From Secundilactobacillus kimchicus JCM 15530 (GTDB taxonomy: Bacteria; Bacillota; Bacilli; Lactobacillales; Lactobacillaceae), in assembly GCF_001433995.1 (NCBI RefSeq), contig NZ_AZCX01000003.1, positions 248,001-312,000 of the forward strand: DNA of 64,000 nucleotides. The letters run 5' to 3'. The position numbers and the translations under genes were made by a program. Shown in pieces: positions 23,092 to 42,069 of this stretch. The stretch's first letter is position 1, and the number at the start of each line of letters is the position of its first letter. The notes under the pieces were generated by a model. That model did no database searches. It had not been told where the DNA came from and saw only the letters and a program-made list of their open reading frames with translations.

Positions 23092-23110
23092 AGACAAGTT
23101 TTAGGGTTAG

Positions 23111-23188
23111 TCGCGCTTCCTTCGGTAGTATCAACTACATCAGGTTCGATGGGTTTAATCTCAGCCAGTGGATGGCACCCCAGACGAA
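23111..23188 (-). ncRNA. TPP riboswitch (THI element)
   Basis: Read on the minus strand the aptamer shows all conserved blocks: GGGGTGCC at the 5' side, CTGAGAT, ACCCATCGAACCTGAT, GTTGATACTACCG and AAGGAAGCG. These are the pyrimidine- and pyrophosphate-sensor arms of the thi-box. It controls thiS-thiF-thiG and the downstream hydrolase, shutting them off when thiamine pyrophosphate is abundant. Confidence 0.97.
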
Positions 23189-23217
23189 CAGAAAATTATT
23201 TAGTTTTAACGCTTCGA

Positions 23218-33931: not shown

Positions 33932-34525
33932 ATGAAAGTCATTAGAGAATTAGCGAGTTGGATTGTTCCGGTGATTATTGGAATTATCATCGCTTTCGGG
34001 ATTAAGGCGTTTGTCCTGTCACCGGTTCGGGTAGACGGGCCGTCGATGGAGCCAAACCTAGTTAATAACGAACGGATTTGGATGTTTAAACAAGCCAAGG
34101 TCAAGCACCTTAGTGTGATCGTTTTTGATGCTCACGGTGAGGACCCCAGCGCTAAGAAGGGGTCGGACTATGTGAAGCGGGTGATTGGGCTGCCGGGTGA
34201 TTCGGTCGCGTTTAAGAACAATAACATCTACGTCAACAACAAAAAGATCGACCAAAGTTTTATTAGTCGTTCAGAAGCCACGACGGGGACCGGAGCGACA
34301 AGCTGGACGTTAACAACGCTGGCTAAACGCTATGGTTGGCAGACCAGTGGTAACGTGGTCCCTAAGGGCAAGTACTTTGTGCTTGGTGATCACCGAAGCG
34401 TTTCAAATGACTCCAGATACTGGGGTTACGTGGATGCTAACAAGGTTGCTGGGGTCGTGAAAGTACCGTTCTGGACGGGGACTAAGACCCAACGACATAA
34501 CATTAATTCGTTATCATATGACTAG
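33932..34525 (+). CDS. lepB: Signal peptidase I
   Basis: A 197-residue type I signal peptidase: one N-terminal membrane anchor (WIVPVIIGIIIAFGIKAF), the catalytic Ser in VDGPSMEPNL (near residue 37), the catalytic Lys in DYVKRVIGLPGDSV (near 77) and the conserved LGDHRSVSNDSR box. It removes signal peptides of secreted proteins at the outer membrane face. A GTG three bases upstream is an alternative start. It is monocistronic, with a terminator before the leu leader. Confidence 0.95.
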   Translation: MKVIRELASWIVPVIIGIIIAFGIKAFVLSPVRVDGPSMEPNLVNNERIWMFKQAKVKHLSVIVFDAHGEDPSAKKGSDYVKRVIGLPGDSVAFKNNNIYVNNKKIDQSFISRSEATTGTGATSWTLTTLAKRYGWQTSGNVVPKGKYFVLGDHRSVSNDSRYWGYVDANKVAGVVKVPFWTGTKTQRHNINSLSYD

Positions 34526-34532
34526 TGAAAAT

Positions 34533-34577
34533 GCGTCACCGCTGAATCAATTGCTGATTTAGGGGTGACGTTTTTTT
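34533..34577 (+). terminator. Terminator after lepB
   Basis: GCGTCACC / GGGTGACG stem with a second inner pairing (CTGAATCA / TGATTTAG) and seven T. Confidence 0.8.
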
Positions 34578-34740
34578 CTGCCCGCCTCAGTTTCGACTCA
34601 AAATCGCCCGAAAAAACGGCTCATTTCTATATAATTTGGGAATAATGGGGGACGCTGGAATAATCAGTGGACGCCTGATATTATCGGGTTTTACCCCGAT
34701 ATTCCATTAAATTTAAATGAAAATATAATTAAAAAATCCG

Positions 34741-34769
34741 TTGCCGATTCGGCTTCCCAGTGCTAAACT
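34741..34769 (+). promoter_or_regulatory. Promoter of the leu operon
   Basis: TTGCCG (34741-34746), 17-base spacer, TAAACT (34764-34769). It places the start about 25 bases before the leader peptide. The AT-rich tract just upstream (34700-34735) could be an UP element or hold an activator site. Confidence 0.6.
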
Positions 34770-34802
34770 TTCGGTATTCAATCAAAAGGAGGTTTCGAAC
34801 TT

Positions 34803-34871
34803 ATGACAACAGCTCAACAACAACACCAATCAACTAACTTCGAAACCGCCTTATTAGCCTTATTACTATAA
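34803..34871 (+). CDS. leuL: Leucine-rich leader peptide of the leu operon
   Basis: A 22-codon ORF with an ideal site (AAAGGAGG, ten bases before ATG). It begins MTTAQQQHQSTNFET and ends ALLALLL-stop, with five Leu among the last seven residues (codons TTA, TTA, TTA, TTA, CTA). It lies between promoter and attenuator of leuA. When charged leucyl-tRNA is scarce the ribosome should stall in the Leu run and change the folding downstream. This is the attenuation logic known from enteric and lactococcal leu/ilv operons. Confidence 0.9.
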   Translation: MTTAQQQHQSTNFETALLALLL

Positions 34872-34873
34872 CT

Positions 34874-34971
34874 TAGGACTCTGACAATTAATCTGTCGAG
34901 TCCATTTTGCGTTATGGAAATGAGGCTCGGCGGCACGAACACCTCATTTCTTGTAAATGAGGTGTTTTTTT
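34874..34971 (+). terminator. Attenuator of the leu operon
   Basis: Directly after the leader peptide comes a hairpin GGACTCTGACA / TGTCGAGTCC (34876-34903) and then the terminator AACACCTCATTT / AAATGAGGTGTT followed by seven T (34938-34971). The segment AAATGAGG (34918-34925) is an extra copy of the terminator's 3' arm, so it can pair with CCTCATTT and form an antiterminator. Two mutually exclusive folds are therefore available. Confidence 0.85.
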
Positions 34972-35008
34972 GTTTTTCAACTACGACGTTCAGAAAGGAT
35001 TGATCATT

Positions 35009-36172
35009 ATGACAAAGAACATTCAATTTTTCGACACCACATTGCGAGACGGAGAACAAACCATCGGCGTCAACTTCAGTATCGACCAAAAAGTAGCTAT
35101 TGCTAAACAGTTGGAGGCCTGGGGCATTGACGTGATCGAAGCCGGTTTTCCAGTGGCTTCGGACGGGGATTTTAAAGCCGTTGAAGCTGTCTCACACGCC
35201 GTGACCAAGGCCTGTGTCACGGGGTTGGCACGGGCCAAAAAAGGAGACATTGATGCGTGCGTCAAAGCCACTCAAGCAGCGGCCCATAAACAAATTCACG
35301 TGTTTATTGCAACCAGTCCTATTCACCGCAAGTCTAAGTTACATATGAGCCAAGATGAGGTGATCGCAAGTATTCAAGATCACGTGAGCTACGCGCGTCG
35401 GTTCTTTGATATCGTTGAATTTTCACCCGAAGACGCAACCCGGACCGAACCGGATTTCTTGGTTCGAGCCGTTCAAGCGGCCATTGATGCTGGGGCTTCG
35501 GTCATCAATATTCCCGACACCGTTGGCTATACCAATCCCGTAGAATTTGCGGCGCTCTTCAAGAATCTCCGAGAAAACGTGCCCGACTTCGATAACGTGA
35601 CCTTTTCAGTTCACTGCCACGATGACTTGGGGATGGCGGTTGCGAATAGTCTGGCCTCCATTGAAAACGGGGCAACGCGGATTGAGGGCACCATCAACGG
35701 GATTGGTGAACGGGCCGGCAATGCGGCGTTGGAGGAAGTGGCTGCGGCCCTGTACGTCCGGCACGATTACTATGACGCTGATAATCGGATCAACCTCTCG
35801 GAGACGAAACGAACGAGCGATATGATTAGTGATTTTACCAATATGGCTGTGCCACATAATAAGGCGGTGGTCGGCGCGAATGCTTTCGCTCACGAATCTG
35901 GTATTCATCAGGATGGCATGTTGAAAAATCCGCAAACCTACGAAATTCTGACGCCAGAGGTGGTTGGTGCTCACAAGACCACCTTGCCACTTGGTAAGCT
36001 GTCCGGTTCCCATGCCGTGATGACGAAGTTGCAAGAAATGGGGTACAACGTGACCCGGGCCGATATGACGTGCATTTTCCCCATCTTTAAGGCGAAGGCC
36101 GATACCACGGACGTTGTTTCCGAAGCCGATTTGAGAATCATTATGAAACATGTTAGCGAGGTGTCTGCGTAA
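35009..36172 (+). CDS. leuA: 2-isopropylmalate synthase, short form without regulatory domain
   Basis: A 387-residue protein of the HMG-CoA-lyase-like family: [18 protein letters not shown] at the start, the metal site HCHDDLGMA (about residue 200) and [18 protein letters not shown]. It condenses acetyl-CoA with 2-ketoisovalerate. Usual LeuA has about 500-520 residues with a C-terminal LeuA_dimer domain that binds leucine. This one stops shortly after the subdomain [20 protein letters not shown], so that domain is absent and feedback inhibition should be lost. The ATG at 35009 follows GAAAGGA. It overlaps leuB by one base. Confidence 0.9.
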
Positions 36173-37251
36173 TGAGCCAAAAACCCTACCAAATTACCGC
36201 ATTGCCTGGTGACTACATCGGTCCAGAAATTATGGCGGCCGGCTTACGAGTCCTAAGGGCGGTCACTGCCGACCAAAACTTTGATTATACCGTCACCGAA
36301 TACCCATTTGGCGGTGCTGGGATTGACGCAGCCGGTGATCCCTTACCAAAAGAAACGCTAGCAGCAGCCAAAGCCAGTGACGCCGTGTTACTAGCAGCCA
36401 TTGGCGGACCCAAGTGGGACGGGGCAGCTCGGACACCTGAAACCGGCTTGCTGGAAATTCGCAAGGCCTTGAACTTATTTGCCAATATCCGGCCCACCGC
36501 AATTAGTCCGGTGATGCAACGGTACTCACCGATTAAAAATGAAGACCCAGTCGACTTCGTCATTGTCCGGGAACTAACCAGCGGGATTTACTTTGGCACC
36601 CCCCGGGAACGGACTGCTGATTATGCCCTAGATACTATGCGTTACACAGCAAGTGAAATCGAACGAGTCGCCCGGGTGGCTTTTGAAATGGCTAACCGTC
36701 GACACCAGCACGTGACGTTGGTGGATAAGGCTAATGTCTTAGCGACCAGTAAGTTCTGGCGCGAAGTTGTTGGGCGAGTGGCCACCCAGTATCCGGCTGT
36801 CACCTTAGATTACTCATACGTTGATGCGGCGGCAATGAAGATTATTGCCAACCCCGCACAGTTTGACGTGATCTTAACCGAAAACCTCTTCGGCGACATT
36901 TTAAGTGACGAAGCCGCTCAGATTACTGGATCGCTAGGCACCATTCCATCGATGAGTTCGGGGGCTAACGGTCCGGCTCTATACGAACCCATTCACGGAT
37001 CAGCACCGGATATCGCCGGTCAGGGAATCGCTAATCCATTTTCAATGATTAAGTCGGTTGCCATGATGTTGACCAATTCCTTTGACCGTCGCGACTTGGC
37101 GGCTACCATTAATGCGGCTGTTGATCAAAGTATCGCGACGCACATTGTCACACCGGATCTCGGCGGCAGTGCCACGACCGAGGAAGTCACCAACGCTGTC
37201 ATTCAATCAATTCAGGAAAGCAGGGTCAGTTATGAACCAAACCATGTTTGA
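36172..37251 (+). CDS. leuB: 3-isopropylmalate dehydrogenase
   Basis: A 359-residue decarboxylating dehydrogenase: [20 protein letters not shown], the substrate loop [10 protein letters not shown] and [14 protein letters not shown], and the metal/NAD part [19 protein letters not shown] and [15 protein letters not shown]. It makes 2-ketoisocaproate from 3-isopropylmalate with NAD+. The ATG overlaps the leuA stop, and its own 3' end overlaps leuC by 20 bases, so the operon is tightly coupled. Confidence 0.96.
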
Positions 37252-38605
37252 TAAAATTTGGAATCAGCACGTCATTGAAGGTCAACCGGGTGAGCCCCAG
37301 TTGATTTATGTGGATCTTCATTTACTCCACGAAGTCACGTCACCTCAGGCCTTTGAAGGGTTACGAGAAGCTGGTCGAAAGGTGCGCCGGACCGACAAGA
37401 CCTTTGCGACGATGGATCACAACGTGCCCACTGAAGACATCTTTAACGTTAAAGATGCGATTTCGCGAAAACAGATTGAAACGTTGGGCCAAAACGCTAA
37501 GGAATTTGGCGTTCGGTTAGCCGGAATGGGCGACGAACGGCAGGGGATCATTCACGTCATCGGCCCACAGCTTGGTTTGACGCAGCCCGGGATGGTCATC
37601 GTGTGTGGCGACTCACACACGGCCACCCACGGCGCATTTGGGTCCATCGCATTTGGGATTGGGACCAGTGAAGTTGAACACGTCTTGGCCACGCAGACCA
37701 TCTGGCAGACCAAGCCGAAAACCATGGGAATTCACGTTCACGGCAAGATGCCGGCTGGCGTCTACGCCAAGGACATTATCATGGGTATTATTGCGCGTGA
37801 AGGGGTGGCCTTTGGGACCGGCTATGGTGCCGAATTTTACGGTGACACCATTGAGGCTATGAGTATGGAAGAACGTATGACATTGTGCAACATGGCGATT
37901 GAAGGTGGGGCCAAAATGGGGAGCGTCCGGCCGGATCAGACGACGTTTGATTACGTGGCAGGCCGGGAATACGCGCCGAAGGATATGGCGAAGGCTATCG
38001 CGTACTGGCAGCAGTTCTACACGGACAGCGAGGATGCTTTTGACCGGATCATCGATTTTGATGTCAGCGAATTGGCCCCATTTGTCTCCTGGGGAACTAA
38101 TCCAGGAATGGCCGTGCCCATTGACCAACCCTTCCCAGCCATTAAAAATGCCGATGACCAGAAAGCTTACGATTACGTGGGATTACAACCTGGTGAGACA
38201 GCTGATCAGATTCCAATCCAATACGTCTTCTTCGGCTCATGCACCAATGGCCGCTTGTCGGATCTGAAAATTGCCGCCAATATTTTGAAAGGGCACCACA
38301 TTGCTGACGGAGTGACGGCGTTGGTGGTGCCGGGGTCCCGGACGATTAAGCACGAAGCTGAAAAACTGGGAATCGACCAAATTTTTAAGGCCGCGGGCTG
38401 TGATTGGCGGGAACCGGGATGCTCGGCCTGTCTCGGAATGAATCCGGATCAAGTGCCAGCTGGCATGCACTGCGCGTCAACGTCAAACCGAAACTTCGAA
38501 GGGCGCCAAGGGGCTGGTTCTAAGACCCATCTCGCAAGCCCTGCCATGGTGGCTGCAGCTGCCATTCACGGCCACTTTATTGATATTCGAAAGGAAGCCA
38601 TTTAG
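37232..38605 (+). CDS. leuC: 3-isopropylmalate dehydratase, large subunit
   Basis: A 457-residue aconitase-family protein with three Fe-S cysteines ([13 protein letters not shown]; the C-terminal [13 protein letters not shown] pair) and MDHNVPT and [12 protein letters not shown] motifs. The start is ATG 37232 ([10 protein letters not shown]) or ATG 37244; upstream codons in frame belong to the leuB overlap and are rejected. With LeuD it isomerises 2- to 3-isopropylmalate. Confidence 0.95.
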
Positions 38606-39190
38606 ATGGAACCCATTACGGTGATCAACGGCACCAGTGTGCCACTCATGAAGGATAACATCGATACAGACCAATTAATTCCTAAGCAGTTTTTGAAAAA
38701 TATTTTGAAGGTTGGTTATGGTCAACACCTATTTTACGATTGGCGGTATCAAGAAAATGGTCAACCTAATCCTGACTTTATCTTAAACCGGCCTGACCGG
38801 CAGGGTGCAAGCATTCTGGTGGTAGGGGACAATTTCGGTTGCGGGTCCTCTCGAGAACACGCTGTCTGGGCGCTTAAGGACTATGGGTTCAAGGTTGTCA
38901 TCGCCGGTGGTTACTCAGATATCTTTTATATGAATAGTACCAAAAACGGATTTTTAGCCATTATCTTACCCAAAGAACAGCGTGACATTTTAGCTGCAGC
39001 TCCGGCAGATGCCGTCATTACAGTGGATTTGCCGAATCAGGTCGTGGAATACGATGGGTACCGCTTTGAATTTGATATTGATCCGCTGTGGAAACATAAG
39101 TTTGTTAACGGGCTCGACGATATCGCAATTACCATGGGCTACGAAGACGAAATTGAAGCCTACGAAGCACGGATGCCTAGCTTCAATTAG
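38606..39190 (+). CDS. leuD: 3-isopropylmalate dehydratase, small subunit
   Basis: A 194-residue swivel-domain protein: [42 protein letters not shown] and [18 protein letters not shown]. It completes the LeuCD isomerase. The ATG begins directly after the leuC stop codon (no gap). An MFS gene follows 25 bases later in the same transcript. Confidence 0.96.
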
Positions 39191-39215: not shown

Positions 39216-40511
39216 ATGGAACTACAAAACATAGGGCTACAGACCAGGCTTGATCAAACTCGGGAATCGCCGCTATTCTATAAAATTTTTGGGCTCGTTG
39301 CCGGCGGAATGTTTTTGGACGCCGCCGATGTTTACATGGCAAGCTCTGTGGCAAGTTATACCCTTCAGACGGGGTGGTCGACGGTTCAGCTGAATTCGTT
39401 GTTTTTATCCAGCGGGTTCCTAGGTTTATTTATTGGCTCCATCATTTCAGGTTTCATTGGCGACTTAAAAGGGCGTCGGGTGGCGTATCAAATCAACCTG
39501 ATATTGTTCGGTGGTTTTACCTTTTTGGCCGCCTTTTCGCCTAATATGACCTTCTTGATTGGTTGCCGGCTAATGGCGGCTATCGGTTTAGGGTCAGAAA
39601 TCGTGACCGGTTACTCAATGGTTAACGAGTTCTCGCCAATTCATAACCGAGGAAAGTGGTGTGCCGCGACGTCGTTAATCGCCAATTGTGGGGCGCCGAT
39701 TACCATGCTAATCTGTACACTGGTCCTGCCCCGTTTCGGTTGGCGCCCACTATTTGCGCTTATTGGGGTTATTGCCGCCATTCTGTGGTATTTGCGGCGT
39801 GACATTCCCGAGTCCCCGCGCTGGTTGATTGCTCACGGGCGGAATGAGGAAGCAGAGGCCGTGGTCAAGCAATTGGAGATCACCGGGCGCCAGACGGCAA
39901 CGCCATCGAAGACACCGGTTTCTCACGACCAAGTGCACCATTCGCTAGGCGTGAGTCTCTTTGTTGCCATTGTGGCTGTTACGGCGACGATTATTTGCCA
40001 GTATGCATTCACCTCGTGGGTCCCAACGTTGTTGCTACAACGCGGCATCAACATCTCAAGTTCCCTGGGTGTTTCAACAATCATGATGCTGGGGGCGCCA
40101 GTGGGCTGTGCCATTGGGGCCACGATGATTGACCGAATTGGGCGGAAAAAGACCATTGTCCCAGCCTTTTTGCTGACAGCCGTTTTTGGCATGATGTATG
40201 CGCACCAGTCCAGTATGGGCATGGTAGTTTTGATTGGGTTCTTACTCACCACGTGTTTTTACGTTCTGATGGCCAGCGTTGTGGCCGTTTACGTAGCTGA
40301 GTTATTTCCCACACAGTACCGGTTCCGAGGATCCGGCATTGCTAACGGCATTGCTAAGTTGATGACAGTCGCCATGCCGATCGTCGTGGCTTGGTTATTG
40401 AAAGTTGCTTCAGCTGACGCTATTTTCTGGGCAATCAGTGGCATTGCATTATTTGCAGGAATTGTGGTTTGGGTCTTCGGTGATGAGACGAACCAAAAAG
40501 AAATTGGTTAG
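39216..40511 (+). CDS. MFS transporter (aromatic/carboxylic acid:H+ symporter-like) in the leu operon
   Basis: A 431-residue, 12-helix MFS protein. Motifs include FLDAADVYMASSVASYTL in helix 1, GDLKGRRVAYQINL (motif A), RLMAAIGLGSEIVTGYSMVNEF (sugar/acid porter signature) and DIPESPRWLIAHGRNEEA in the middle loop. The combination points to the AAHS/SHS-like or sugar porter branch that often carries carboxylates. It lies 25 bases after leuD and before the operon terminator. A leucine-pathway keto or hydroxy acid is a plausible substrate, but that is inference from position only. Confidence 0.82.
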   Translation: MELQNIGLQTRLDQTRESPLFYKIFGLVAGGMFLDAADVYMASSVASYTLQTGWSTVQLNSLFLSSGFLGLFIGSIISGFIGDLKGRRVAYQINLILFGGFTFLAAFSPNMTFLIGCRLMAAIGLGSEIVTGYSMVNEFSPIHNRGKWCAATSLIANCGAPITMLICTLVLPRFGWRPLFALIGVIAAILWYLRRDIPESPRWLIAHGRNEEAEAVVKQLEITGRQTATPSKTPVSHDQVHHSLGVSLFVAIVAVTATIICQYAFTSWVPTLLLQRGINISSSLGVSTIMMLGAPVGCAIGATMIDRIGRKKTIVPAFLLTAVFGMMYAHQSSMGMVVLIGFLLTTCFYVLMASVVAVYVAELFPTQYRFRGSGIANGIAKLMTVAMPIVVAWLLKVASADAIFWAISGIALFAGIVVWVFGDETNQKEIG

Positions 40512-40520
40512 GTAATCAGT

Positions 40521-40562
40521 GACGCGGTGTTGCGGTGGTTTTGCAGTGTCGCGTCTTTTATT
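40521..40562 (+). terminator. Terminator of the leu operon
   Basis: GACGCG / CGCGTC ends of a 35-base hairpin with internal GTG/TGT mispairing, then TTTTATT. Confidence 0.6.
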
Positions 40563-40674: not shown

Positions 40675-42069
40675 ATGATGACTTTTGATGCTTACACAAA
40701 TGATGAAAAAATCAGCTACTTAAAGGCCCAAGCACCGCATGCCGACATCCACGTGGATGATGCAGTGACTCAGAAATACTCAGCAAACGGTCGTGCGGCT
40801 AGTGAAATTGATGGCAAAATTCTAGCGTACGTCGCTGTTTCCGATGTTGATGATATTAAAGGCGTGCTGAAAACGGCCCGCAGATTTCATTTACCAGTTG
40901 TTCCTCAGACCGCTGATAGCTCAACGGTGATTGGGGCTGACGGCATTGATGGTGGGTTGATTTTATCAACGGCAAACATGACGACGATTAAAGAAATCAG
41001 CCCGGATGATGGGGTCGCAGTGGTTGAACCCGGCGTGGTCAATGGGGACCTCGATAAGGCAGCGCGCGAACACGGGATGTTTTACGCACCAGACCCTGGT
41101 TCTAAGCCATTTTCATCAGTTGGTGGGAATGTCGGCACCAACGCGGGTGGTATGAGCACGGTTAAATACGGGGCTACTCGTGATTCCGTGCTGGGATTAA
41201 AGGTAGTTTTGGCGGATGGCAGAGAGATTAAGATTGGTGGACGAACCTACAAGCAGGCCTTTGGCTACGACCTGACCCACCTCTTTGTTGGCAGTGAAGG
41301 GACGCTTGGCATCGTGACTGAAATCACCGTTAAGCTGTTCCCAATTCCGTTGGGGACCTCGGTCATGGGAAGTGCCTTTTTCCCTGATATGGCGGCATTG
41401 GCCGCGACAGTTAAGGACTTGCGGATGTCGGGCATTTACCCGGTCATGCTGGAAGCGCTAGACGGGAAAACAACGGCGGCGTTGGATGAGTATGAAGGTA
41501 CCCACTATGCGGAAGGAAACGACGCGATGCTGATTTTCCGGTTAGATGCGGGTGGTCAGGAAGCCCTAGACGTTGCTGAGAAGATCCTTAATGATCATGA
41601 GGCAAAGCACGTTCACGTGACCTCTGATGAGACCGAGAAAAAAGCCCTTGAAAAGTTGCGTCAAGACATGTTACCAGCCGTATTTGCACACGGTAACCAC
41701 ATTATGGAAGACATGGCCGTGCCGCTATCGAAGCTGGCTGAAATGGTTGACTACGTGAACCAAGTGGCCGAAGAACTTGACGTGGATATTTACACGGCTG
41801 GTCATGCGGGAGATGGCAATGTCCATCCAAGTCTCTTATGGCCAAAGGATCAACCGGAACCACCGGCTAAAGTTCTGGAAGCCACTCGCCGATTGCTGAA
41901 AAAAGCACTGGAACTCGATGGTACCATTTCGGGTGAACACGCCGTGGGGATGCTGAAGAATCAGTGGACGAACGCGGAACTAGGATTTGATGTTGATATG
42001 ATTCAACACCAAATTAAGGACCTCTTTGACCCAATGGGCATTTTGAACCCAAAGCGCAAGATTAATTAG
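40675..42069 (+). CDS. FAD-binding 2-hydroxy-acid oxidase/dehydrogenase (GlcD / D-lactate dehydrogenase type)
   Basis: A 464-residue protein of the VAO-type FAD family: FAD domain with VPQTADSSTVIGADGIDGGLIL, GVVNGDLDKAAREHGMFYAPDPG and GSEGTLGIVTEITVKL, then the FAD-oxidase C-terminal domain with GHAGDGNVHPSL and the end GMLNPKRKI-like FDPMGILNPKRKIN. Relatives oxidise D-lactate, glycolate or D-2-hydroxyglutarate. No Fe-S partner subunit (GlcF/LutA) is near. The gene follows the leu operon on the same strand but has its own promoter. A leucine-derived hydroxy acid could be a substrate; this is a guess. Confidence 0.88.
   Translation: MMTFDAYTNDEKISYLKAQAPHADIHVDDAVTQKYSANGRAASEIDGKILAYVAVSDVDDIKGVLKTARRFHLPVVPQTADSSTVIGADGIDGGLILSTANMTTIKEISPDDGVAVVEPGVVNGDLDKAAREHGMFYAPDPGSKPFSSVGGNVGTNAGGMSTVKYGATRDSVLGLKVVLADGREIKIGGRTYKQAFGYDLTHLFVGSEGTLGIVTEITVKLFPIPLGTSVMGSAFFPDMAALAATVKDLRMSGIYPVMLEALDGKTTAALDEYEGTHYAEGNDAMLIFRLDAGGQEALDVAEKILNDHEAKHVHVTSDETEKKALEKLRQDMLPAVFAHGNHIMEDMAVPLSKLAEMVDYVNQVAEELDVDIYTAGHAGDGNVHPSLLWPKDQPEPPAKVLEATRRLLKKALELDGTISGEHAVGMLKNQWTNAELGFDVDMIQHQIKDLFDPMGILNPKRKIN

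Follow-up and report, generated by a model that had tools for sequence, protein, structure and literature searches.

What does the region in front of leuA do in Secundilactobacillus kimchicus JCM 15530, and how could it tie the leucine operon to the leucine supply? The question is raised by the window, i.e. the whole stretch of 64,000 nucleotides analysed here (NZ_AZCX01000003.1, positions 248,001 to 312,000), in which a small ORF and hairpin structures lie upstream of leuA. We consider it highly probable that this leader is a ribosome-mediated transcription attenuator which senses charged tRNA-Leu and controls leuABCD together with a gene for an MFS transporter. Translation-coupled attenuation by leucine had been proposed in a first-pass annotation of this DNA and is strongly supported by the conservation, covariation and codon content described in the following.

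A short predicted ORF with a ribosome-binding site (RBS) and a run of regulatory codons, as expected of an attenuator, is found in the leader (Table 1). The first-pass annotation had placed and read this 22-codon ORF correctly, with AAGGAGG at 34786-34792 in front of it. As it had stated, Leu accounts for five of the seven final sense codons (at 34851, 34854, 34860, 34863 and 34866), and the peptide ends with LLALLL. Likewise, the duplicate of the terminator 3' arm is present at 34918-34925 (AAATGAGG), and the announced hairpin and terminator ahead of leuA were recovered: the terminator hairpin spans 34937-34967 with a T run to 34971, it is the sole terminator-like site in 34480-35050 (shuffle mean 0.4), and the fold of 34870-34980 amounts to -36.7 kcal/mol (z -4.41), with none of 200 shuffles equally stable. 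The promoter given in Table 1 recurs by eye in a related leader (L001) as TTGCCA-17-TAACCT with equal spacing; since it lies below the cut-off of the promoter scan, whose listed sites elsewhere occur at about chance level, it has to be regarded as unproven. An inverted repeat (ATCGGG..CCCCGAT, 34686-34703) located 5' of this promoter may, judging from its sequence, be an operator.

Table 1. Features of the leu leader and the operon behind it (positions in the window)
Feature	Position	Strand	Basis or remark
Likely promoter, TTGCCG-17-TAAACT	34741..34769	+	read from sequence; transcription start about 34776
Leader ribosome-binding region, 5' arm of the predicted RBS-occluding helix	34786..34799	+	fold and covariation
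Leader peptide ORF MTTAQQQHQSTNFETALLALLL	34803..34871	+	22 codons, ATG 34803, TAA 34869-34871; conserved in relatives
Anti-RBS arm within the leader ORF, up to the first Leu codon of the run	34839..34852	+	fold, covariation
Sensing codons TTA TTA GCC TTA TTA CTA (Leu Leu Ala Leu Leu Leu)	34851..34868	+	Leu run conserved
Segment 0, Leu-codon stretch AGCCTTATT	34856..34864	+	pairs with segment 3 if the ribosome is absent
Segment 1	34876..34886	+	helix 1:2
Segment 2, partner of 1 or 3	34893..34908	+	fold, helix statistics, modelling
GTTATGG	34911..34917	+	partner of the stop-codon region 34866-34872 when the leader is untranslated
Segment 3, partner of 0, 2 or 4; includes AAATGAGG	34916..34933	+	
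Segment 4, terminator 5' arm; partner of 3 or 5	34937..34951	+	
Segment 5 (terminator 3' arm) and T run	34955..34971	+	
leuA, 387 aa, without C-terminal LeuA_dimer domain	35009..36172	+	profile matches
leuB	36172..37251	+	passes curated NCBIfam cut-off
leuC	37232..38605	+	passes curated NCBIfam cut-off
leuD	38606..39190	+	passes curated NCBIfam cut-off
MFS transporter, 25 nt past leuD, taken as the operon's last gene	39216..40511	+	inference

The leader peptide is conserved in related strains, a point treated as a refutation test of the earlier annotation: a DNA search detected the leader in 11 of the 15 genomes of the genus, which are exactly the 11 with leuA, and the other four have neither the leader nor leuA (leuA cut-off E 1e-90). 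In the leaders that were read, the Leu run is kept, and the peptide is free to vary in its N-terminal half. This bears on the view that a constitutive terminator or processing site lies behind a gene for a small functional protein and that leucine is not sensed at all. Although such a view would fit the short, well-started ORF and the strong terminator, it does not account for a peptide whose Leu run is held constant against a variable N-terminal half, nor for the maintenance of four mutually exclusive helices (see below) that a simple terminator does not need, and we regard it as very improbable. A riboswitch or a tRNA-binding T-box, instead of a translation-dependent device, has to be weighed for a 5' leader that is long, conserved and equipped with both terminator and antiterminator at a branched-chain amino acid (BCAA) operon of the Bacillota; according to the accessible part of PMC5794164, the ilv-leu operon of B. 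subtilis uses a T-box. However, at gathering score Rfam yielded nothing at the leader in the window or in 13 related loci, sub-threshold matches at the leader belong to unrelated families, and this reading was rejected on that ground. As the leaders also contain a conserved ORF whose BCAA codons track the function of the gene behind it, we rate it as even less probable than a constitutive terminator.

Further leaders were collected with two covariance models, the E-values of which are rough. Model R1, built from 13 leaders with the sequence after the stop codon only, matched 85 of the 397 Lactobacillaceae genomes searched (E 1e-3), the weakest matches being partly due to chance. Model R2 comprises 59 sequences and excludes the sensing codons as well, with some coding sequence beyond the sensing run being added by transporter leaders. 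At E 1e-4 it matched 112 of the 397 Lactobacillaceae genomes, spread over 19 of 40 genera. In the order, 97 of 295 genomes from 36 of 75 genera were matched at this cut-off, 10 of these 97 belonging again to the Lactobacillaceae. The first-pass annotation had called such leaders seldom described in lactobacilli. The arrangement is not rare: for 53 of the 85 leuA genes in the 397 Lactobacillaceae genomes a match lies no more than 700 nt ahead of the gene and on its strand. The other 32 leuA genes have no model match within this distance; among them is one genome (G093) with leuA and a leader at contig ends. From the R1 matches 90 loci were read, ten of which gave no leader ORF (L105, L160, L165, L169, L171, L172, L174, L178, L180 and L182), and 67 further loci include three without a leader ORF, the ilvB locus L235 among them. 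Likely chance matches (L165, L170, L173, L178-L181, L183) were left out of the sets for Shine-Dalgarno (SD) occlusion and for composition-blind ORF choice. The leader nearest to that of the window (L082, G003:C57; 85% identity) precedes an MFS gene without leuA, and the leuA of the same genome has a different leader (L092/L124); judging from the sequence, the L082 locus is possibly the leftover of a second leu operon. In another genome the leuA behind the leader (G026:C26:12673-13806) has an in-frame TAA, pointing to a decayed gene or an assembly error.

Statistics on the helices were obtained from alignment A4, which holds 63 Lactobacillaceae leaders aligned by covariance model, 61 of them distinct. 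Paired cells make up 93.4% for helix 1:2, 94.2% for 2:3, 97.3% for 3:4 and 94.9% for 4:5, and sliding the helix partners by one or two columns lowers pairing to 30-61%. Helices 2:3 and 3:4 lie outside the model of A4, and their paired-cell percentage and covariation score are above 500 of 500 shuffles. The same was observed for 1:2 and 4:5 counted jointly, which lean towards the model since A4 was fitted to both. Two-sided changes occur in 3 of 10 pairs of helix 1:2, in 5 of 8 of 3:4, in all 10 of 4:5 and in only 3 of 12 of 2:3, where 70 of 500 shuffles reach as many. Segment 3 is complementary to segments 2 and 4 alike and hence has the property required of a switch, and by pairing statistics and modelling the terminator and the antiterminator exclude each other.

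For the modelling of ribosome positions, pairing was barred under the ribosome footprint and the transcript ended at 34952, just past segment 4. In the window the probability of helix 3:4 is 0.92-0.98 with one of the codons Leu17-21 in the A site, 0.26 with Leu22, 0.10 at the stop codon and 0.03 without a ribosome. Folding with and without a ribosome stalled on the Leu codons, suggested earlier as a check, therefore gives ON for a stall at Leu17-21 and OFF without a ribosome. For 34 clusters of the leu type, namely those of 46 present in A4, the median values are 0.99 at the best Leu codon, 0.01 at the stop codon and 0.16 without a ribosome. Taking the best Leu codon and a difference of at least 0.3, a contrast between ON and the stop position is obtained in 31 of the 34 clusters and between ON and the untranslated leader in 21; in the remaining 13, among them that of L094, the leader most frequent in the genus, an untranslated OFF state is not predicted. 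The outcomes agree for leading edges of 14-18 nt, and at 12 nt the contrast is seen in 25 clusters and the stop state of the window is no longer OFF, with a P(3:4) of 0.81. In silico, then, the position of the ribosome would select between terminator and antiterminator, depending on the footprint size. A stalled ribosome was suspected to block helix 1:2, wrongly, as a stall upstream leaves segment 1 free and it is the stop position that covers segment 1. In the full-length transcript, 1:2 with 4:5 (-29.6 kcal/mol) is better than 1:2 with 3:4 (-25.1 kcal/mol) and the terminator is favoured at all ribosome positions modelled, so the ON state needs kinetic trapping before segment 5 emerges.

The first-pass annotation had described a two-state attenuator. 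The alternative of terminator and antiterminator holds, but the window is better described by three states in the models, i.e. OFF without a ribosome, ON at Leu17-21 and OFF at the last Leu or stop codon, with the Leu codons themselves pairing with segment 3 when translation is absent. We infer that in the cell the leader is translated, ribosomes stall, and transcription is terminated or antiterminated as follows. If the leader is not translated, segment 0 would fold onto segment 3 around hairpin 1:2, the terminator 4:5 would form and the operon would be OFF. When leucine is scarce, the first ribosome would stall on Leu codons 17-21 and cover segment 0 with segment 1 left free. Helix 1:2 could then form, and segment 3, being released, would pair with segment 4 before segment 5 emerges (ON). 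When leucine is plentiful, a ribosome at the last Leu or stop codon would cover both segments 0 and 1, leading to 2:3, the terminator and OFF.

In the fold of the window without a ribosome, AGCCTTATT (34856-34864) pairs with AATGAGGCT of segment 3 (34919-34927), and this helix 0:3, together with the pairing of the stop-codon region to GTTATGG, encloses hairpin 1:2. For 54 distinct leaders of the leu type, 94.4% of the cells of 0:3 are paired compared to 42-62% for slid partners. Shuffles reach 93.0 +- 0.4%, with one in 1000 as high, which is a narrow margin with little covariation, and only one of the eight pairs changes on both sides. Here a plain two-state attenuator, working by 1:2/3:4 versus 2:3/4:5 only, has to be considered, for which helix 0:3 and the RBS helix are by-products of coding conservation. 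The few two-sided changes and the 13 clusters without an untranslated OFF state speak for it, and the Leu run and segment 3 may each be conserved for other reasons. Against it stands the codon, Ala in the window, that breaks up the Leu run four positions ahead of the stop: it is GCC in 50 and GTC (Val) in 4 of 55 leaders (those of the 63 rows of A4 for which a separate leader record exists, the others being identical or without ORF call), as pairing with segment 3 requires. The remaining leader (L121) is shifted out of register by an additional codon. Moreover, 18 transporter leaders (two pairs with identical strands included; segment 0 located by an [AVS]LLL-type motif) show covariation in the duplex of codon run and segment 3, the cognate duplexes having -16.2 and the permuted ones -11.6 kcal/mol (0 of 5000 permutations). 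With the exception of L159 and L176, which are worse, 16 of the 18 beat their own noncognate mean.

A second helix, which like 0:3 had escaped the first-pass annotation, concerns the start of the leader ORF. The RBS region pairs with the anti-RBS arm inside its own ORF (-16.0 kcal/mol, z -4.10), just before the Leu codons, with 34791-34799 opposite 34839-34847. Among 68 distinct leaders of leu and transporter types in 46 clusters (under 80% identity), the expected number of pairs between the RBS region and the ORF plus 16 nt is 12.5, versus 8.7 in synonymous and 7.9 in codon-order shuffles, and 44 of the 46 clusters lie above the synonymous mean. Counted up to the stop codon only, the values are 11.0 versus 8.0 and 7.0 (38 of 46 above). 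The starts of 42 downstream genes, counted over the ORF length only, give 5.4 expected pairs. Individually, 21 of 46 clusters pass the 5% level against synonymous controls. The window itself does not (0.12), a point in favour of the plain two-state reading, and it passes against codon order. Against this reading, the pairing of the set as a whole exceeds both controls and covaries: cognate duplexes have -15.1 and noncognate ones -10.4 kcal/mol in the 46 clusters (0 of 5000 permutations; 44 of 46 better), and -12.0 versus -8.3 in 44 order-wide clusters (0 of 5000; 31 of 44 beat their own noncognate mean). Taken together, we regard the plain two-state reading as unlikely and prefer the three-state leader with its RBS helix. 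Occlusion of the SD core alone is modest (lower than the null mean in 34 of 46 clusters and within the lowest 5% in 11 of them) and proved a weak measure of RBS control; it was replaced by the pairing that the entire RBS region forms with the ORF. In short leaders ending with FALLL the SD, e.g. GGAGTCC, reaches over the stop codon to pair with segment 1; in L117, L118, L120, L122 and relatives a GGAGTCC-like SD pairs with GGACTC of segment 1, not with the ORF, which by sequence is a different solution to RBS closure. The RBS:ORF helix would shut the RBS behind a ribosome that has finished, and with the RBS closed after the first ribosome, probably one ribosome decides per transcript.

The regulatory codons fit the product of the genes behind them, as expected of an attenuator. 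Genes behind leader matches are leuA, leuB, ilvD, ilvE, ilvB, those for an SBF-type symporter and a PTS_EIIC_2 protein and few others, and matches also precede genes for livJ-type, OppA-type and family-3 solute-binding proteins. The leuB leaders adjoin a leuA leader in several genomes, and no leader ORF was called at the ilvB locus. For these assignments, IlvD, IlvE, IlvB and livJ-type proteins were tested on one locus each, OppA-type, permease and MFS proteins were tested as well, and the other loci were classed by BLAST to tested proteins or by an N-terminal motif which we take to be characteristic. A 45-aa IlvD fragment gave no family match, and the livJ-type proteins match Peripla_BP_6, their best NCBIfam model being below its own cut-off. 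In the best six-residue window of the ORFs, whose choice favoured Leu or L/I/V/A runs in both locus sets, the L/I/V residues are 90% Leu before leuA (47 distinct peptides), 83% Leu before livJ (27), 36/41/23% L/I/V before ilvD (18), 87% Ile before the SBF-type symporter (n=3) and mostly Ile before ilvE (n=4). With a composition-blind ORF choice (149 loci, 130 with ORF), 95 of 116 distinct peptides have at least four L/I/V residues in six versus 55% of shuffled ones.

Some leaders deserve separate mention. A second leader in the genome of the window (L213, G000:C41) is located before a livJ-type gene; the reading frame of livJ-type leaders extends into segment 1 (..LLLKTKDPTL..), so that their stop codon comes later than in leu leaders. 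LivJ-type leaders with ..LLMLSIKDPII.. (L218, L226) were detected before a gene like iron-containing alcohol dehydrogenases, assigned by Pfam for L218 and by likeness for L226. In L163 the leader ends with TVVVVLLLS (Val and Leu codons) in front of a PEP-mutase-like gene, an unexpected target.

In the operon itself, 2-isopropylmalate synthase models cover residues 2-382 of the 387 of LeuA; the score exceeds the cut-off of NF002086 but, LeuA being shorter than the models, stays under those of the others. The closest named relatives of LeuA, from Secundilactobacillus, share 82-83% identity. LeuA_dimer, the leucine-feedback domain, was found in none of the 397 Lactobacillaceae genomes, 85 of them with leuA, and in 14 of 14 control genomes. 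Its loss is not universal, since it is present in Limosilactobacillus ingluviei from another collection (L012). CodY (PF06018) was not found in the genome of the window, with B. subtilis and L. lactis as positive controls, so the operon does not classify as a CodY-controlled BCAA operon; an IlvD/Edd-family gene is present. With a LeuA lacking LeuA_dimer and CodY not found, the leader may be the main leucine-specific control. The nearest NCBIfam model of the MFS protein is the aromatic acid/H+ symport family, below cut-off; homologues stand behind their own Leu-rich leader (L102/L082, L125/L093 and, with a weak 19.8 bits, L012), which leads us to predict a role in the transport of leucine or a leucine precursor. 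The operon is taken to end after this gene because of a terminator-like hairpin at 40521-40555, in a region that has about as many such sites as its shuffles have on average. Beyond this hairpin lies a GlcD-like FAD-linked oxidase gene (40675-42069), and elsewhere the window holds a TPP riboswitch on the minus strand (23099-23192; RF00059, 64.7 bits).

In the trp and his attenuators, stalling on regulatory codons allows the antiterminator to form; in that of trp, regulatory codons also lie within a pairing strand, and the E. coli trpL leader can occlude its own RBS. E. coli and Salmonella attenuators differ from the leader described here in strand count and wiring, 0:3 enclosing 1:2 in the window. 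As far as the accessible parts of the following reports go, the leu and ilv attenuators of these bacteria likewise let the antiterminator form upon a stall on regulatory codons (PMC6123439), and experiments on ribosome-mediated attenuation of BCAA operons exist for Listeria and S. aureus (PMC5864092, PMC5794164). Rli60 of Listeria monocytogenes resembles our leader in its BCAA-rich peptide, alternative terminator and antiterminator and position at a Bacillota BCAA operon; mutants of its RBS and ATG lower ilvD transcription in low-BCAA medium, corresponding to the reduced operon transcription predicted here for an untranslated leader (PMC5864092). Its antiterminator comprises segments 2 and 3 and its terminator 3 and 4, and it precedes ilvD in one ilv-leu operon that is also under CodY (PMC5864092), whereas in the window there are six strands, leuABCD stands alone and CodY was not found in the genome. 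The S. aureus ilv-leu attenuator shares a Leu-rich leader, terminator, alternative fold and Leu control, but encodes a 26-aa peptide with three Ile codons, and its antiterminator pairs GAAUGG with the poly-U tail and not with the terminator 5' arm (PMC5794164). A premature-stop mutant of S. aureus, once taken as support for ribosome-free readthrough, was dropped since the untranslated state is OFF here. The leu leader of Lactococcus lactis (Godon 1992) and BCAA leaders of Streptococcus are, in the accessible text of PMC6123439, predictions with a BCAA-rich peptide and terminator ahead of BCAA genes, as in the window. Streptococcal leuA leaders end with ALLLRYSG or similar and match model R1 (best 2.7e-5); by sequence, streptococcal and Lactococcus leaders appear to share the RNA architecture of the lactobacilli, more weakly outside the Lactobacillaceae. 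Among the matches listed from the open-access literature (including PMC2965389, PMC5794164, PMC6123439 and PMC5864092), the accessible parts hold no lactobacillar leu leader, no RNA family common to these genes and no such leader RBS helix. The mechanism is therefore known, and the architecture and breadth are apparently new relative to these matches.

The leader elements, their conservation and covariation and the modelled state preferences were all obtained by computation. To a wider proposal we give somewhat less than an even chance: one homologous attenuator RNA family, not contained in Rfam 15, would be a main BCAA sensor of the Lactobacillales, moved among genes of biosynthesis, transport and transamination, and its codon run would have been adapted to Leu, Ile or a mixture on the way. 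The sensing codons would double as the strand that blocks the antiterminator, a self-made anti-RBS would let only the first ribosome decide, and in the lineage of the window the leader may replace CodY and the feedback domain of LeuA. The RBS helix, whose role in the cell we infer, raises a general question on attenuators, i.e. how reinitiation is prevented so that one ribosome means one decision. Through the search model, transporters and enzymes whose role is uncertain can be connected with branched-chain amino acids, as exemplified by the MFS protein behind leuD. For lactobacilli, the leader offers a concrete six-strand mechanism of leucine control, and where LeuA_dimer has been lost it may be the only leucine-specific brake of the pathway.
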